This document shows positions 29,497 through 38,013 of a DNA stretch of 64,000 nucleotides, in pieces. The stretch is from Leptospiraceae bacterium (GTDB taxonomy: Bacteria > Spirochaetota > Leptospiria > Leptospirales > Leptospiraceae): positions 1,251,001-1,315,000 of the forward strand of contig JABTUZ010000001.1 in NCBI GenBank assembly GCA_015075105.1. The letters are read 5' to 3'. Both the position numbers and the translations under genes were made by a program. The number at the start of each line of letters is the position of its first letter. Positions within the stretch are counted from its first letter, which is position 1. The notes under the pieces are model-generated. The model ran no database searches. It saw only the letters and a list, made by a program, of their open reading frames with translations, and was not told the DNA's origin.

Positions 29497-31197
29497 ATGA
29501 AACTCATCCTGAATAATATCAAATATCAGATTACCCTGATATTTGCTATAGTTATTGCAATAAGTTTTTCCACCACTGCACTATTCACCTCCATCTCCTT
29601 CCAAGACAAATTTGAAAAGCTAATACAACAAGAATTAAAATCGGATATACGGTTTTCAAAAGAGCTTCTGGAACTTAGACTGCCAGGAGATTGGTCAGCA
29701 AGAGGAAACTCTCTTTATAAGGGAGAGGTTCTTATAAACAATAATTTTGAAATAGTTGACATGATCAAAGAAATTTCAGGAAATACAGCTTCGATTTTTT
29801 TAGGAAATACAAGAGTGACAACTAACGTATTAAAGCCGAACGGAGAAAGAGCGGTTGGAACAAAAGTATCTCCTCTCGTAGAAAATACTGTATTAAAAAA
29901 TAATAAACCCTATTACGGTGCGGCAGATGTGTTGGGTGTTATGAATCAAACTGCTTACGAGCCAATCCTAAATCGACAAGGAGAAGTAATCGGTATATTG
30001 TATGTTGGAATTCCAAGTACGACCTATAAATATCTGATCAATGAGTTTATTCTACTAATGATTGCAATCAGTACTATTATTTTAATTCTTGGAGGAGGAG
30101 TAATGCTATATTTTATAAATAAAAAAATCTCTCCTCTAAAAAGTCTTACAGAGGTTACAAAAAAAATAGCCAAGGGAGACTTGAAGTTCGACTACACAAT
30201 CAAAGAATCTGAAGATGAGATCGGGGTGCTTTCTTCAAGTGTTCATATTATGAAAGATCAAATTTATGAAGTGATCTCAAAAATGAAGCAAGCTACCTTA
30301 GAAAATAATAAAATTGTGACAAAGTTATCCAACTACTCTATTGATTTGAGCTATACGGCAGGAATACAGACAGAACAATCGAAAGAGTTTCATTCTACTT
30401 TTTTAGAATTGTCAAAATCTTCTAAGAAAATCAATGAGAATATTGAAAGTTCTGTTGACTCGACAAAAAATGTAAGTAATATCATTTTAGAATTTATAAA
30501 TTCTTTTAAAGACATTGCACAAATCACCCACCAATTAAACAGCCTCATCACCCATATCACAAACAATATCTTAACCAGTGAAAATGAAATACGCGATATT
30601 GCAAAAGCGATCCAAAACATAAAAGAAAGCACAGGACAAGTTTCGGAGTTTATAGGGATTATTACTGAAATCTCTGATAGGACAAATTTATTGTCATTAA
30701 ACGCATCCATCGAAGCGGCAAGAGCTGGAGAGAGTGGACGAGGGTTTGCAGTTGTAGCCTCCGAGATTACCAAGTTAGCCGATAAAACTCTTCACAGCGT
30801 GAAAGACATTGAATCAATCATTTCAACTTCCTCAAAATCTATTCAAACCGGGATTGACAGGGTGAATCTGACTCTTGATAGTATCCACTCGGTGATTAAC
30901 AATTTTGATAGTATCAATAATTACACAAACGAAATCAGAGAAAAATTTGAAAAGCAAAGTGAGATAACAAATACTATTTCAGAAAATTTAGACAATATCA
31001 ACAGCTACTCCGACGAAATCAAATCGAGCTTAATGATTCAGAAAAATTTCTTGAGTGAGGTATCTTATAGCGCAGAATCTTTAACTCAAAGTGCAGAAGA
31101 CCTAAATACCCAAGCTCTTTCATTAAAAGATATGTCAGATGGTTTAAGCCAAACTAACGATTCTATGTTTCAATCAGTGAGCAATTTTACAATCTGA
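29497..31197 (+). CDS. Methyl-accepting chemotaxis protein with periplasmic Cache domain
   Basis: A 566-residue chemoreceptor. Helix 1 is at residues about 12-33. The periplasmic part (about 35-180) looks like a single Cache domain, with [20 protein letters not shown] and GILYVGIPS. Helix 2 is at about 183-206, followed by HAMP ([20 protein letters not shown]) and the signalling hairpin, whose tip reads [21 protein letters not shown] and [15 protein letters not shown] ligand cannot be predicted. It follows the membrane protein by 14 bases. It would feed the CheA-CheY pathway that drives periplasmic flagella. Confidence 0.92.
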
Positions 31198-31214: not shown

Positions 31215-31242
31215 GGAACCTTATTAAAAATTTCAGGTCTCA
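31215..31242 (+). promoter_or_regulatory. Candidate ECF-sigma promoter
   Basis: GGAACC at 31215-31220 and GTCTCA at 31237-31242 are 16 bases apart, matching the general ECF consensus (GGAAC, 16-17 bases, GTCT). It lies 21 bases before the ATG of the lipoprotein that heads the sigma-factor operon, which is what autoregulation by the encoded sigma factor would need. This rests on the pattern alone. Confidence 0.55.
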
Positions 31243-31262
31243 CTTGCATAAGGGAGAATAAC

Positions 31263-31706
31263 ATGAAAACATTTACAAAATTTATAATTCTAATGATCAT
31301 TGGAGGGGTATCTTTTACAGCTTGCAGAAGACACCACCCACCCTCTTTTCAAAAATTTACAGAATTTATCACTAAGAAATTGACAAAAGAATTGGATTTG
31401 AACGATACCCAAAAAGCTGTATTAGAAAAACTGAAAAATGAAGTAATTGCAAAACGACAAGAACTTCAAGTCCACGGGCATGGAGAAAGAATACCAAAAG
31501 AATTAGTAGAAGAAATCAGAAAAGAAAAAATCGACGAAGCAAAAGCACAAAAATATTTTGAGGCTGAATCTGCAAAGCATATCGCACTTAGAGGTTTTAT
31601 ATTAAAAAAATTCATTGAGTTTCATTCTGTTTTAAATCCAGAGCAAAGAAATAAATTGGGAGATTTGATTCTAAAAATGCAAAAAAGATTTCAACACAAT
31701 GACTGA
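31263..31706 (+). CDS. CpxP/CnrX-like periplasmic lipoprotein, probable sensor for the adjacent sigma factor
   Basis: A 147-residue lipoprotein: leader ends FTACRR with lipid Cys21. The mature part is all-helical with LTKELDLNDTQKAVLEKL (residues about 40-57) and SVLNPEQRNKLGDL (122-135), which resemble the paired LTxxQ motifs of the Spy/CpxP/CnrX group. Histidines cluster at 24-25, 71, 73, 106 and 121, so metal binding is possible. GGGAG precedes the ATG. Its end overlaps the sigma-factor start by 8 bases. In CnrYXH the same kind of protein senses Ni/Co and controls anti-sigma CnrY; that role is inferred here. Confidence 0.68.
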   Translation: MKTFTKFIILMIIGGVSFTACRRHHPPSFQKFTEFITKKLTKELDLNDTQKAVLEKLKNEVIAKRQELQVHGHGERIPKELVEEIRKEKIDEAKAQKYFEAESAKHIALRGFILKKFIEFHSVLNPEQRNKLGDLILKMQKRFQHND

Positions 31707-32199
31707 AGAAGAATTTGCGAAAATCGTAAACTCTACAAAAAAGATCGTCCTCTCTGCGATTTCCAAACATCTCAGAGAGAGGTTTTCTTTTGCTATTGAC
31801 GATGTTGCCCAAGAAACTTATTTCCGGGCTTACAAATCGCTAAGTAAGAATAGTTTTCGAGGAGATTCTTTATTAAGCACTTGGCTATACACTATCGCCA
31901 AAAATGAATCTATCAGAATGAATTCCAAATTGGAAAAAGAAGAAAAAAAAATCGAAAAATTAAAAAATCAAACTAAAACAGAAGAAATTGATTCTGAGGT
32001 TGGACTCGTCGAAAAATATTTAACCCTACTCCAAAAAATCCCAAAAAAATATTCTGAAATTTTACTCCACTACCATAAAGGGTATAGCGAAAAAGAGATT
32101 TCTGAAAAATTGAATATCAGCAAAGGAACCGTAAAAAGCAGAAATTCTCGCGGGAAAGTAATGATAAAAAAACTATCTATGGAGGTAGAAAATAAATGA
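31699..32199 (+). CDS. ECF-family RNA polymerase sigma factor
   Basis: A 166-residue sigma-70-family protein with only regions 2 and 4. Region 2 (about 10-80) includes IDDVAQETYFRAYKS and WLYTIAKNESIRM. Region 4 (about 105-160) includes KIPKKYSEILLHYHKGYSEKEI and a helix-turn-helix LNISKGTVKSRNSRG. The linker is short and Lys/Glu-rich. It is sandwiched by overlaps of 8 and 4 bases between the periplasmic lipoprotein and a one-pass membrane protein, the standard arrangement for an ECF factor with its signal chain. Confidence 0.9.
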   Translation: MTEEEFAKIVNSTKKIVLSAISKHLRERFSFAIDDVAQETYFRAYKSLSKNSFRGDSLLSTWLYTIAKNESIRMNSKLEKEEKKIEKLKNQTKTEEIDSEVGLVEKYLTLLQKIPKKYSEILLHYHKGYSEKEISEKLNISKGTVKSRNSRGKVMIKKLSMEVENK

Positions 32200-32468
32200 G
32201 AAACTCTAGAAATTCACAAATTCAAAAAAAAGTTCAAAGCGAAAGATGGGGAGAAGAAATTGCAGGAAAAGTTTTCCAAAAAAGGAGAATACAAAAAAGG
32301 AATATTCTATTTAGAATTTCACTAATTTCCGCTGCCCTTTTCTTTTCACTGTATTCATACCAAAATTCGATTAACTCGAATTTTGATAACTCAGCGACAA
32401 GCTATTTTGAGACTATTTTTGTTCAAAAAATCAATTTTGAAAATATTGCATCCGCTTTGGACGAATAA
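32196..32468 (+). CDS. One-pass membrane protein, probable anti-sigma factor
   Basis: A 90-residue protein overlapping the sigma gene by 4 bases (ATGA). Residues 1-37 are basic and polar (cytoplasmic by the positive-inside rule), 38-56 (ILFRISLISAALFFSLYSY) are a membrane helix, and the last 34 face the periplasm. Size and topology match CnrY (about 95 residues, short cytoplasmic sigma-binding N-terminus). There is no zinc-type anti-sigma motif. Anti-sigma function follows from position and topology only. Confidence 0.58.
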   Translation: MRNSRNSQIQKKVQSERWGEEIAGKVFQKRRIQKRNILFRISLISAALFFSLYSYQNSINSNFDNSATSYFETIFVQKINFENIASALDE

Positions 32469-32506: not shown

Positions 32507-33190
32507 ATGAAACGACTTATACTATTTTTCCTGTTACTCACAACTGTAGGTTATGCACAAGATCGACCAAAATCTGAATCGTCCAGTTTGGATGGATTCG
32601 GGGAATCTGAATGGGGAGCCAGTTACGAATCCATTCGAGATAAATTTCTAAATTTATCTAAAAATCCAAATTCAACTGAAAAAATAGAAGTCGTAAATGA
32701 GGTGAAAGACGAAAGCCTTCTAATCAGAAGAAATGGAATTAACTATCTTTACAGATTTTACAAGACCCCTGCAATAGTAAAAGAATCCCGTGAAAAAAAT
32801 ATTGTAGATACCTCCTCTACCGAATTAGATCCGAAAACTGGAGACCAGAAACACGATGGGACAGGCAGCTTGTATTCAGTCGGAGTTTTATTTAATTATG
32901 TGGAAAGCGATTTACTAAAATTAAAAATAGAAAATAAATACGGTAAACCTAAGAAGGAATCGTTGGATGATAACAAAATCGGGGGAGCAGTGATCTGGGA
33001 GCTTACGAATGCAAATGAAGCCACTCCCAAAGGAGGGTATATAGTGCAATGGAAAGATGTGTATAGAAAAAAACCATTTTCCAGAAGAATGGACTATTAT
33101 AGTGCAAGTATCAAAGATATGATTGCAAAAGAATACAAAGAATACTTCTCAGTACCAGAAATCAAAACTTTAAAAGAATTATTAAACTAA
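32507..33190 (+). CDS. Secreted protein of unknown function
   Basis: A 227-residue protein with a clear signal peptide (residues 1-18, cleaved after YAQ). The mature part has LDGFGESEWGASYESIRDKF near residue 29, a pattern seen in secreted proteins that start with a Gly-Trp-Gly type motif, then a beta-rich region ending ELLN. It lies 38 bases after the putative anti-sigma gene and may be a target of the sigma factor or separate. Not recognised further. Confidence 0.65.
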   Translation: MKRLILFFLLLTTVGYAQDRPKSESSSLDGFGESEWGASYESIRDKFLNLSKNPNSTEKIEVVNEVKDESLLIRRNGINYLYRFYKTPAIVKESREKNIVDTSSTELDPKTGDQKHDGTGSLYSVGVLFNYVESDLLKLKIENKYGKPKKESLDDNKIGGAVIWELTNANEATPKGGYIVQWKDVYRKKPFSRRMDYYSASIKDMIAKEYKEYFSVPEIKTLKELLN

Positions 33191-33900: not shown

Positions 33901-34941
33901 TTATTTTTTTGAATGGGTTTTTTCGTATTCATCTAAAAGAAAATTCAACTGCTCGTTAAAACAAATACTAGACTGGTGGGATGCGTCGTAAAATAACGAA
34001 CAGTTAGAAACTTCATTTAAATTGAAAGATTTCATCTGGTAGTTTTCACTCAACTCTTCTAATTTTTTCCACCATGTATTTTTTAAATCAAACTCATCAT
34101 AGATTTTTTTATAATCTGGATACACTTTTGGGAAAAGAATATTTACCATAACTTCATTTTCTTTTGCAAGTTTCAACATTTCTTCAATGAAAAAATATTG
34201 AGTAGAGTCAATTTTAAAATTTGAGAAATAAATATTTTTCATTCTAAGAGAATCTTTTTTTAGTTTTGTATCATCGTTTTGAAAAGTTGTGTAGGCTACT
34301 TGCGCACCATTGTACAAATTTAAAATCATCATCTCTGAATTTGTTTTCGGATCGTATTGAGATAGAGATTTTGATTGTATTCGATTCAATAAAAGCTTAT
34401 AATCAAATTCCAAAGATCGATACACAAAAATCTTATCTAAAAAATATTCATACCTGTCTTCCTTCGGCAAAAATTTCCAATATTTAGAAATAAATTCTCT
34501 ATCAGCCCCAAGTCTTAAAAAAGGCTTAAATATAAGTCTTTTAGAATCATCGAAACCTTCCGGGCTAACTGCAAACACAACAAGTTTAGGCTTCACCTTA
34601 CTTTCTATAACTTTCCTGAACATGTAAAAAGAATACGCAGGAACTGCCTGAGCTGCACTGAAATTGTACACCTTCCAAGAATTCTTTCTTACAAAATTTT
34701 TTTCAAATGCAAGATCAGAATAGGAATACCCCCTCGAATCACCAAACACCAAGATCAAATTCTTATTAGTTGTGTCTTTTTTTAATTTTTCTAAAAGCAA
34801 TTCTCTATGTTTGTAATAGACTGCATTCCCTGTTTGTAAAAAACGTTCTTTAAAAAAAGAAATACTAAAAATTTTATCTATGAAAAATAAAAAAATTAGA
34901 AAAATCAAAGGGTAGTAAATATAAAAATTTTTCTTGTTCAT
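33901..34941 (-). CDS. DUF1574-like membrane-anchored protein paired with MBOAT
   Basis: A 346-residue protein with one N-terminal membrane helix (residues about 8-27) and a periplasmic domain beginning LILVFGDSRGYSYSDLAFE (residues about 60-80), a GDS motif like SGNH hydrolases. The end (SNCSLFYDASHQS near 315-325) may supply the Asp-His part. The Leptospira DUF1574 family and alginate AlgJ/DltD-like partners of MBOAT acyltransferases have this layout. It starts 9 bases after the MBOAT stop, so it likely completes transfer of acyl groups to an extracytoplasmic glycan. Confidence 0.75.
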   Translation of the reverse strand: MNKKNFYIYYPLIFLIFLFFIDKIFSISFFKERFLQTGNAVYYKHRELLLEKLKKDTTNKNLILVFGDSRGYSYSDLAFEKNFVRKNSWKVYNFSAAQAVPAYSFYMFRKVIESKVKPKLVVFAVSPEGFDDSKRLIFKPFLRLGADREFISKYWKFLPKEDRYEYFLDKIFVYRSLEFDYKLLLNRIQSKSLSQYDPKTNSEMMILNLYNGAQVAYTTFQNDDTKLKKDSLRMKNIYFSNFKIDSTQYFFIEEMLKLAKENEVMVNILFPKVYPDYKKIYDEFDLKNTWWKKLEELSENYQMKSFNLNEVSNCSLFYDASHQSSICFNEQLNFLLDEYEKTHSKK

Positions 34942-34950
34942 AATAGCGTC

Positions 34951-36372
34951 CTAAAATTTTGCATAGAAAAAATCTAAGTTACCACTCTGATTGGATATCA
35001 TTACCAACAACACAAGGATGTATCCAAAAGGCAAAATTCTATATTTGTATTTTTCAAACTTTCTAAAGGCATCCGGCCACTCTTGAACTGAGTGAAAAAG
35101 AAAGGTGAATACCCCTACATAAAAACCTGTTTCTAAAGCCGTAAGCTCCAAACCTTTTTTCATTATAGCTATATTTTTCATTACAAGAAGAGCCGTTTTT
35201 ACATCCGGAGTAAAAAAAAGAACCCACGAAATCAAATAGATATGGAGTACAAAAAAATATTTTAACCCAAACGATAGATAAGGTATTTTGGGAATCTTTT
35301 CCATGAATTGTAAATTTCCAAAAAACCTTTCAATAGACAAAAAAATTCCTGTCAAAAATCCCCACAAGGCAAAGTTCAAACTTGCGCCATGCCAAAGCCC
35401 TCCCAAAATAAATGTAATGAGTAGATTGAAAGAAGTTCTAAGCTCTCCTTTTCTTGACCCACCAAGAGGAATATAAATATAATCTCTAATCCAAAAGGAA
35501 AAAGTCAAGTGCCACCTTCTCCAAAAGTCTCCAAAGTTGGAAAGAAAAAAAGGAGCCTTAAAATTTTCGGGCAAAGAAAATCCGAGTAACTTTCCGATTC
35601 CTCTTGCCATGTCTGTTAATCCGGAAAAATCTAAGTACAAATGAAAAGCAAAAAAATAACTCGTATAAAGCAGAGATAAACCGGAGTAATCCGCAGGTTT
35701 TGAGAATACTGGATAGATAGAGAGTGCAATTAAATCAGAGAGTAGTATCTTCTTTACAATCCCAACTAAAATCAACCAAAGCCCGTCTGCCATGTCTTTT
35801 TCATTCATAGTCGGATTTTCAAATTGAGAACGAATGTCTTTGTATCGTAAAATTGGACCCGCAATCATCACCGGTAAAAATAAAATATAGGAAGCTATAT
35901 CGAAAAATTCTACCTTTTCTGAAATCACTTTTTTCTTTAAATCCACCCCAAGAGAAATAAATTGAAAAGTATAGTAACTGATTGTAGCGGGCAAGACCAA
36001 TTCAAAAACTTTTAAGTTTAGTAAACTTGAAAAATATCTATTCAATTCTGTTTTTTCAGATAAGACCCCTATCCCAAAAATTTGACCGATTAACTCTAAA
36101 ACAAAATAAAAATATTTAAACAGAATCAGATTGAATAAATTTACCCCTACGATTAATTTTACAAAAACCTCTTTCTGTAAAAAATATTTGATCATTAAAA
36201 AATTAATTAGGATTATAAAAATTAAATGAATTAAAAAATTAAAACTAAAAAAAGAATAAAATATACAAGAAGCAATAATAAGTAAAATTCTTTTCTTTTT
36301 TAAAGATACATTCCAATAGAAAACGTACAGAACTATAAATAAGGCTAAAAATTTTATAGATATAAAATTCAT
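34951..36372 (-). CDS. MBOAT family O-acyltransferase (AlgI-like)
   Basis: A 473-residue polytopic protein with about ten membrane helices. The family core is clear: YLDFSGLTDMARGIGKLLGF near residue 245, NFGDFWRRWHLTFSFWIRDYIYIPLGGSR near 275-300, and the catalytic histidine in GGLWHGASLNFALWG near 325. It passes acyl groups across the inner membrane to a glycan acceptor. It follows the pseudouridine synthase gene by 9 bases and is followed by the DUF1574-like gene. Confidence 0.92.
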   Translation of the reverse strand: MNFISIKFLALFIVLYVFYWNVSLKKKRILLIIASCIFYSFFSFNFLIHLIFIILINFLMIKYFLQKEVFVKLIVGVNLFNLILFKYFYFVLELIGQIFGIGVLSEKTELNRYFSSLLNLKVFELVLPATISYYTFQFISLGVDLKKKVISEKVEFFDIASYILFLPVMIAGPILRYKDIRSQFENPTMNEKDMADGLWLILVGIVKKILLSDLIALSIYPVFSKPADYSGLSLLYTSYFFAFHLYLDFSGLTDMARGIGKLLGFSLPENFKAPFFLSNFGDFWRRWHLTFSFWIRDYIYIPLGGSRKGELRTSFNLLITFILGGLWHGASLNFALWGFLTGIFLSIERFFGNLQFMEKIPKIPYLSFGLKYFFVLHIYLISWVLFFTPDVKTALLVMKNIAIMKKGLELTALETGFYVGVFTFLFHSVQEWPDAFRKFEKYKYRILPFGYILVLLVMISNQSGNLDFFYAKF

Positions 36373-36381
36373 TTTTGTGTT

Positions 36382-38013
36382 TTAATAAAAAATATCTTCC
36401 TTTTCAATCTTTTTGAATTCTCCTTCTGCAATATCTAAATCGTCTAACTTTAGTTTTCCTATTGAAATTCTTTGAAGGTCCAAAACTTTGGCACCAACTT
36501 TTGCAAACATTCTATGCAATTGTCTTTTTCTGCCTTCTTCCAATACCACCTTCACAAGTCCTTTCGATTTATCCAATACCTCAACTTCCTTAGCTCTAAG
36601 AAATTCACCATCGTCCTCGATTCCTCGAAGAAAACTTTCTCTTAAGTTCTTTTCATCAGGGCAATTTTCCACTACAAGCCTATACGTTTTTTTTTGATGA
36701 AAAGAAGGATGGCTTAGTGTTTGAATTAGATCACCGTCTGAAGACAAAATCATTAAACCCCGAGAGGTAATGTCCAACCGACCTGCAAGAAAAAATCTCT
36801 TATATTCTTTTGGCAATAAATGAAATACCGTATTCTCATTGTGCAAATCGTAGTGAGAAGAAATATATCCGGGAGGCTTATTGAAAGCAATTGTAAAGTT
36901 TTGCAAAATCGGGGTAACGATCTCTCCTTTAACTTCTACCTCATCTTTCCCTATTTGAATTTTAGTAGAAAAATCATTCACAATTATTCCGTTTATTTTT
37001 ACCTTCCCTTCAGAGATTAGTTTTTCAGAATCTCTACGGCTCCCAAACCCACATTTTGCCAAGAAACGATTGATTCTAAGCTCAGAAGGAAGTTCATCAT
37101 CCTCGTCATCGTGTATATCAGTAAATTTCGTATTCTTATTTAACTTGGAGAGTAAGCTGATTTTTTCACGATGGATTTCTTCTGGATCAGGTTTTTTCTT
37201 TTTTATTAAAAAATTTTTTGTAGTCTTTGGAAAATGCTTTTCATCTACCAACTCATGCTTTTTATTTTTTCTGAAAGAATCTCTTGGAATAGATTCACTT
37301 CTTCTAACCGAATATGGATCAAACTCTTCTGTATCAGATTCATACCTATCCGACCAATTTCTATTTTTAATAAAATTTCGATCTTCTCCTAAACCGGAAC
37401 GATAAGAAGTTTTTCTTTCTGTAGATTTCCCAAAGCCGTCATTCGTTTCTGAAGAATAGTTTTTTTTAAAAAATTCTTTTCTTCGATTGTCCGTTTTATC
37501 ACCGAAAGGTTTTCTATCCCTGAATTCTTTTTTATCTCCAAAAGATTTTCTGTCTCTGAATTCTTTTTTATCTCCGAAAGGTTTTCTGTCCCTGAATTCT
37601 TTTTTATCTCCAAAAGATTTTCTGTCCCTGAATTCTTTTTTATCTCCGAAAGGTTTTCTGTCTCTGAATTCTTTTTTATCTCCGAAAGATTTTCTGTCCC
37701 TGAATTCATTTTTATCACCGAAAGGTTTTCTGTCCCTGAATTCTTTTTTATCACCGAAAGATTTTCTGTCTCTGAATTCTTTTTTATCTCCAAAAGGTTT
37801 TCTGTCTCTGAATTCTTTTTTATCTCCGAAAGATTTTCTGTCTCTGAATTCTTTTTTAGGCAATTCTCCAGCCTTAGAAAAACTCTTTTTCGAACCTTTA
37901 TTCTCTCGTTTTGGAAAAGGTTTTTTATCTTCTTTGTCCTTAGGGTGAAAAGTTTTTTTTTCTTCGTTTGACTTAAGTTTTCTTGGGGTTTTCTTTTTAT
38001 TATCTGGGTTCAT
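36382..38013 (-). CDS. RsuA/RluB-family pseudouridine synthase with repetitive charged N-terminal extension
   Basis: Modifies uridine in rRNA. The C-terminal 240 residues hold an S4 RNA-binding domain (RINRFLAKCGFGSRRDSEKL near residue 310) and the synthase domain with AGRLDITSRGLMILSSDGD near residue 402 (catalytic Asp in GRLD) and GRKRQLHRMFAKVGAKVLDL. The first 300 residues are a Lys/Arg/Asp-rich extension containing ten copies of a 12-residue repeat (KEFRDRKxFGDK, residues 53-173). Normal family members are about 240-290 residues, so this 543-residue form is nearly doubled. The extension may bind RNA nonspecifically. Operon with MBOAT. Confidence 0.9.
   Translation of the reverse strand: MNPDNKKKTPRKLKSNEEKKTFHPKDKEDKKPFPKRENKGSKKSFSKAGELPKKEFRDRKSFGDKKEFRDRKPFGDKKEFRDRKSFGDKKEFRDRKPFGDKNEFRDRKSFGDKKEFRDRKPFGDKKEFRDRKSFGDKKEFRDRKPFGDKKEFRDRKSFGDKKEFRDRKPFGDKTDNRRKEFFKKNYSSETNDGFGKSTERKTSYRSGLGEDRNFIKNRNWSDRYESDTEEFDPYSVRRSESIPRDSFRKNKKHELVDEKHFPKTTKNFLIKKKKPDPEEIHREKISLLSKLNKNTKFTDIHDDEDDELPSELRINRFLAKCGFGSRRDSEKLISEGKVKINGIIVNDFSTKIQIGKDEVEVKGEIVTPILQNFTIAFNKPPGYISSHYDLHNENTVFHLLPKEYKRFFLAGRLDITSRGLMILSSDGDLIQTLSHPSFHQKKTYRLVVENCPDEKNLRESFLRGIEDDGEFLRAKEVEVLDKSKGLVKVVLEEGRKRQLHRMFAKVGAKVLDLQRISIGKLKLDDLDIAEGEFKKIEKEDIFY
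37495..37857 (-). repeat. Ten-copy 36-base coding tandem repeat in the pseudouridine synthase
   Basis: Encodes KEFRDRK[S/P]FGDK ten times with the seventh position alternating Ser, Pro, Ser, Pro without exception, so the evolutionary unit is probably 72 bases (24 residues, five copies). Synonymous differences (TCTCTG/TCCCTG, TCTCC/TCACC on the plus strand) show that it is not all one recent event. One copy has KNEF in place of KKEF. There are no stops in several frames, which creates false open frames on both strands. Confidence 0.95.

Follow-up and report, generated by a model that had tools for sequence, protein, structure and literature searches.

In Cupriavidus metallidurans, CnrYXH forms a class II anti-sigma module of three small adjacent genes, encoding a one-pass membrane protein with its N-terminus inside the cell, a periplasmic protein of the CnrX fold and an ECF sigma factor. 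The SigAb operon of Acinetobacter encodes SigAb itself, the 107-residue one-pass protein AabA and the periplasmic protein AabB; anti-sigma activity has been demonstrated for AabA and AabB alike, SigAb directly controls three targets, copper is an inducer, and the sigma–AabA pair is predicted to be similar to CnrH–CnrY (PMC12153292). A sigma factor, an inner-membrane inhibitor and a periplasmic modulator also share one autoregulated operon in RpoE–RseA–RseB, and proteins of the LTXXQ/Spy/CpxP fold are found beside two-component systems, as CpxP is with CpxRA.

Here we describe a cassette of three genes, denoted X, H and Y, in a Leptospiraceae bacterium. The window analysed is a stretch of 64,000 nucleotides, bases 1251001-1315000 of one contig in a 3.42-Mb genome. 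The cassette resembles CnrYXH in fold and layout, but is not a member of that system on the features tested; the gene order is X-H-Y instead of Y-X-H and X is a lipoprotein, unlike CnrX. By analogy of layout, not of sequence, the closest experimental parallel appears to be SigAb–AabA–AabB, which would have in common with the cassette an ECF sigma factor, a one-pass anti-sigma factor of about 100 residues, a helical periplasmic protein, an autoregulated operon and a very small regulon, although its order is sigma–membrane–periplasmic. The domains of RseA and RseB were not found here, Y is far shorter than RseA, and the fold of X is unrelated to that of RseB. CpxP and Spy go with the two-component system CpxAR; X is instead paired with an ECF sigma factor and with Y.

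Layout of the locus

The cassette occupies window positions 31215-32468 and consists of a promoter element followed by X, H and Y, all on the plus strand:

31215-31240, plus strand: ECF-type promoter element GGAACC-N15-GGTCT (-35 at 31215-31220, -10 at 31236-31240)
31252-31256, plus strand: putative ribosome-binding site GGGAG, 6 bases 5' of the ATG, as read from the sequence
31263-31706, plus strand: X, periplasmic lipoprotein of the Spy/CpxP/CnrX fold, 147 residues (profile and fold matches)
31699-32199, plus strand: H, ECF sigma factor, 166 residues (Sigma70_r2, Sigma70_r4_2 and TIGR02937 matches)
32196-32468, plus strand: Y, putative anti-sigma factor, 90 residues (Trp helix, one transmembrane segment, genomic linkage)

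X and H overlap by 8 bases and H and Y by 4; coordinates, sizes and overlaps are all as given in a first-pass annotation made from the sequence. The promoter that it had written as GGAACC-16-GTCT is the same element as GGAACC-N15-GGTCT, but 22 bases, not 21, separate it from the ATG of X. The element starts 18 bases past the end of the chemoreceptor gene directly 5' of the cassette (29497-31197, plus strand); the product of that gene is a methyl-accepting chemotaxis protein whose sensor domain is of the sCache_3 type.

The gene 38 bases downstream of the cassette (32507-33190, plus strand) encodes a secreted-looking conserved unknown of 227 residues with no Pfam match above cut-off. It was considered as a cassette member and rejected, its homologues being present in 39 of the 41 spirochaete genomes searched and unlinked where checked. 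Farther along, on the minus strand, lie a pair judged by eye to encode an MBOAT-like O-acyltransferase (34951-36372) and a secreted SGNH-like partner (33901-34941), together spanning 33901-36372, and a gene at 36382-38013 whose product begins with a near-perfect tandem repeat (EFRDRKPFGDKK / EFRDRKSFGDKK) followed by an apparent pseudouridine synthase domain.

X has the Spy/CpxP/CnrX fold without the CnrX ligands

X is a member of the LTXXQ/CpxP/Spy superfamily and is modelled with the helical-hairpin fold of Spy, CpxP and CnrX, as the first-pass annotation had anticipated for the lipoprotein. It matches Pfam LTXXQ (PF07813) with an E-value of 8.4e-11 and 42.9 bits (cut-off 24.3), while its match to Metal_resist falls below the cut-off; a profile built from 15 cassette X proteins and compared with solved structures recovers Spy (E=4e-7), CpxP (0.003) and NccX (0.045). 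The predicted structure (pLDDT 87, pTM 0.72) returns in Foldseek only STV, Spy, CpxP, CnrX or NccX at PDB ranks 1-31, with probabilities of up to 1.0, and aligns with CnrX and NccX at TM scores of up to 0.69 by target length. The Foldseek E-values are 0.013 or worse, with none below 0.001, which probably reflects the small size and all-helical make-up of the protein.

X carries a lipobox-like FTAC with Cys21. This cysteine is kept in 20 of 33 X homologues, and the remainder resemble ordinary secreted proteins; lipid anchoring is thus confined to part of the family.

Six histidines (24, 25, 71, 73, 106 and 121) had been put forward as candidate metal ligands. All six are present, but only H121 is widely conserved (20/33 homologues); H24 and H25 are each kept in 4/33 and H106 in 5/33, and at position 73 the window X alone has histidine among the 33 compared. 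The number of histidines per X protein ranges from 1 to 10, with a single one in several cassette X proteins. We take H42, H46, E63 and H119 to be metal ligands of CnrX, with numbering matched to the CnrX sequence. M123 is a ligand as well (PMC7689651). With the register set by alignment and the L-x-P anchor, these five columns hold T37, T41, K58, K116 and F120 in X, and across the 33 homologues they are mostly neither His nor Met. The H119 column does contain His in 7/33 relatives, and other members of the family may therefore bind metal.

H is an ECF sigma factor accompanied by a conserved promoter

H has the simple two-domain build of an ECF sigma factor, with regions 2 and 4 and no additional domain (Sigma70_r2, E=5e-8; Sigma70_r4_2, E=1e-11; TIGR02937 above cut-off), which bears out its initial identification. 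In a maximum-likelihood tree of 60 rows, all 41 cassette sigma factors fall in one group (support 97/98), and the 19 other sigma factors, CnrH among them, lie outside it; CnrH is itself long-branched, and its exact placement is therefore unsure.

Promoters were scored at the 11 positions of GGAACC-N14-16-GGTCT upstream of X. The 43 ECF-linked X loci reduce to 37 distinct ones after six organisms present twice are dropped. About 21 of these 37 score at least 10/11, compared with 0.43% of shuffled sequence, as do 11 of 13 further cassettes, the shuffle rate over both sets being 0.4-0.6%; no good match was found at L053, L063, L065, L069, L202 and L211. In 44 collected motif instances, which were picked by score, AAC and GGT are invariant. 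A simple sigma-70 scan of the intergenic stretch before X gave no match, and the motif is absent from cnr promoters.

Fourteen X loci have no adjacent sigma gene. The nine of them that adjoin a response-regulator-like ORF score no higher than 8 (four of these ORFs are confirmed by Pfam; the others, and an apparent following kinase, were recognized by eye), and a perfect motif precedes three orphan X copies of one genus (L013, L014 and L161). The element goes with the sigma factor rather than with X. That pattern is the main evidence for H reading this promoter, and from this co-conservation we infer that H recognizes the GGAACC element before X. The initial proposal of a self-addressed promoter thereby gains ground, since the element is conserved upstream of cassettes in three phyla at rates far above those in shuffles.

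At L019, L020, L022 and L025 the X homologue adjoins an OmpR-type response regulator, with neither a sigma factor nor an ECF promoter, in an arrangement like that of CpxP with CpxRA. This suggests that X can serve either type of signalling, ECF or two-component.

Y is a candidate anti-sigma factor

Y has a transmembrane segment at about residues 37-55, followed by a periplasmic tail of some 35 residues without a folded domain. Eleven basic residues precede the membrane segment and one follows it, which predicts a cytoplasmic N-terminus; the same charge bias is seen in 34 of 36 family members. Y contains neither Cys nor His and hence no zinc anti-sigma motif (HxxxCxxC), so that the earlier description of a one-pass protein without such a motif holds. 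The N-terminal part contains an amphipathic motif, RLxSxxWxxxIAxxV, whose Trp18 is invariant in 36/36 homologues.

Pfam and NCBIfam searches gave no match for the window Y. The profile search that the first-pass annotation had proposed for this protein thus yields no family, and its only trace of CnrY comes from 3 of the 36 relatives, which match the CnrY model PF17524 below cut-off, in the region of the juxtamembrane helix; the strongest of them scores 19.4 bits, where 25 are required (E=0.0014). Direct comparison of the Y and CnrY profiles is at noise level (P 0.05-0.19), and we treat a possible distant kinship between the two sequences as a lead, not a result. Weak matches to DUF3040, PrgH and Cas3 were judged to be composition artefacts and rejected.

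In length and topology Y fits the short cytosolic stretch of class II anti-sigma factors that wraps sigma regions 2 and 4. An AlphaFold model of the sigma–Y read-through fusion of L066 (plus one row, L064) has a pTM of 0.41, with most helices well predicted; a value this low speaks neither for nor against docking. Y is probably the inhibitor of the sigma factor, and its family a probable new anti-sigma family.

The cassette recurs in several phyla

Relatives gathered in three ways, by X, by the sigma factor in named genomes and by Y in 296 Spirochaetota genomes, gave results that agree. The X-H-Y order and strand are constant in at least 40 loci from Leptospirae, other Spirochaetota, Firestonebacteria (L051, L054, L055 and L058-L060) and Myxococcota/Deltaproteobacteria MAGs (L049, L050 and L056). 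The original placing of the module in a spirochaete was correct but too narrow. Y was found in 74 of the 296 Spirochaetota genomes; among the best 30 matches, a sigma gene lies directly upstream in 30/30 and X is also present in 27/30, one of the three matches without X being truncated by a contig end. L205 and L210 have the sigma gene, Y and the promoter, and no X was detected in them. The genes flanking the cassette vary by lineage, marking it as a self-contained unit. A literature search returned no paper linking LTXXQ proteins to an ECF/anti-sigma cassette of this kind.

Regulon and neighbouring genes

In its own genome, the full 11-base motif with a spacing of N14-16 occurs only at the cassette promoter; the genome search suggested at the outset therefore recovers this site and no further full match. 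A relaxed motif is not enriched there (110 matches against 134 in controls), and two other exact GGAAC-N16-GGTCT sites were discarded as promoters because both lie inside ORFs. Judged by these sequence matches, H in this genome appears to control no genes but its own cassette. Across 12 relatives there are 50 exact sites against 46 in controls, which is chance level, so that a lone site elsewhere than before an X gene carries little weight. Sites common to congeners precede genes for a TetR regulator, a sigma-70-type factor and a small lipoprotein, and one site in relatives precedes a Band 7 lipoprotein gene; we offer these as suggestions for possible targets. In L157 and L158, of one genus, a perfect motif stands about 150 bases before the sigma-70-type factor gene, a possible sigma cascade.

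Efflux genes lie directly 3' of Y in some Firestonebacteria and spirochaetes: TolC and RND genes in L072, TolC and an adaptor in L054 and L058, and an adaptor with a LolCE/MacB-type permease in L065. The RND permease linked in L072/L179 is of the multidrug type, scoring 868 bits as such and only 369 with the heavy-metal model. No heavy-metal efflux gene or pump adjoins the cassette in the window.

Discussion

We propose, with a probability of roughly 0.65, that the cassette works as an ECF switch responding to the state of the envelope, one that amplifies its own expression and also brakes it, in which Y holds H and X senses the periplasm. At rest, Y would span the inner membrane with its N-terminal side facing the cytoplasm, where the amphipathic helix that bears the Trp would keep H inactive. 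X, anchored by lipid, would report on the periplasm, probably through contact with the periplasmic tail of Y; once X is drawn away or reshaped, Y would let go of H. The likeliest trigger would be misfolded envelope proteins, and a metal is possible. Freed H, together with RNA polymerase, would then read GGAACC-N15/16-GGTCT before X and yield more X, H and Y, with H amplifying the response, X and Y restoring the brake, and surplus X perhaps acting as a chaperone. That Y inhibits H and X signals to Y is what we infer, as is the nature of the signal. Counted in favour of this switch are the constant order in at least 40 loci, the strict linkage of Y to the sigma gene and the N-in topology of Y with its invariant Trp, together with the fold of X, the conservation of the promoter, its presence at orphan X copies and the SigAb parallel; counted against it are a sigma–Y fusion model too uncertain to bear on docking, an apparent regulon of a single cassette, which offers no clear downstream benefit, and the cassettes that are poor in promoter matches.

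The first-pass annotation had suggested an envelope or metal sensor in a possible CnrYXH-like module. In a metal sensor of the CnrYXH type, histidines of X would bind Ni, Co, Zn or Cu, and this would release H from Y. Component sizes, topology and the fold of X, common to CnrX and NccX, agree with that idea, as do the histidine-rich members of the X family and the prevalence of His at position 121; yet the CnrX ligand columns mostly hold neither His nor Met, conservation is poor for all the listed histidines but one, some cassette X proteins contain one histidine only, no heavy-metal efflux gene adjoins the cassette, the tested RND permease is of the multidrug type, H does not group with CnrH, and homology of Y to CnrY is not convincing. 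The likeness to the Cnr proteins thus stands for size, topology and the fold of X and fails for ligands and sigma clade, and it is unconvincing for the sequence of the membrane protein. We regard metal sensing as unlikely, and copper induction of SigAb, the nearest characterized layout (PMC12153292), and CnrX itself are what keep it alive.

A different mode of release, replacing only the conformational step, is proteolysis after the manner of RseA and RseB, with X shielding the tail of Y until its departure lets a membrane site-2 protease cut. This is a possible though doubtful variant: the short periplasmic part of Y, without a folded domain, would suit it, as would the two loci for M50 site-2 proteases in the genome, but M50 proteases are ubiquitous (the family occurs in 14/14 control genomes as well) and no site-1 recognition sequence was identified. 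Finally, Y might be a small membrane partner of X with no anti-sigma role, H being governed by its own transcription alone. The absence of a recognized anti-sigma domain and a fusion model that does not establish docking would fit such a partner, but Y follows the sigma gene more strictly than it follows X, persists in L205 and L210 where X was not detected, and is missing where X adjoins two-component systems; we consider this role very improbable.

The envelope switch that we prefer is of a kind already known. What is new may be summed up as a conserved cassette that joins an ECF sigma factor to a putative anti-sigma factor and a candidate periplasmic sensor, its sigma factors forming a separate clade and its Y proteins a family unrecognized by Pfam and NCBIfam. 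It is an evenly balanced question whether this amounts to an undescribed ECF group in at least three phyla, its clade being defined by the 60-row tree, with its own Trp-helix anti-sigma family and a Spy/CpxP-fold protein acting as a portable periplasmic sensor, which evolution has joined to an ECF/anti-sigma pair in some cases and to a two-component system in others.

Little is known of how spirochaetes signal envelope stress, and a 2025 review describes the ECF factors of Leptospira interrogans as poorly understood (PMC12655853). The cassette is compact enough to be tested as one unit: its promoter is defined, and Y and X are candidates for the inhibitor and the sensor. It also ties Spy/CpxP-type proteins to ECF as well as to two-component control.
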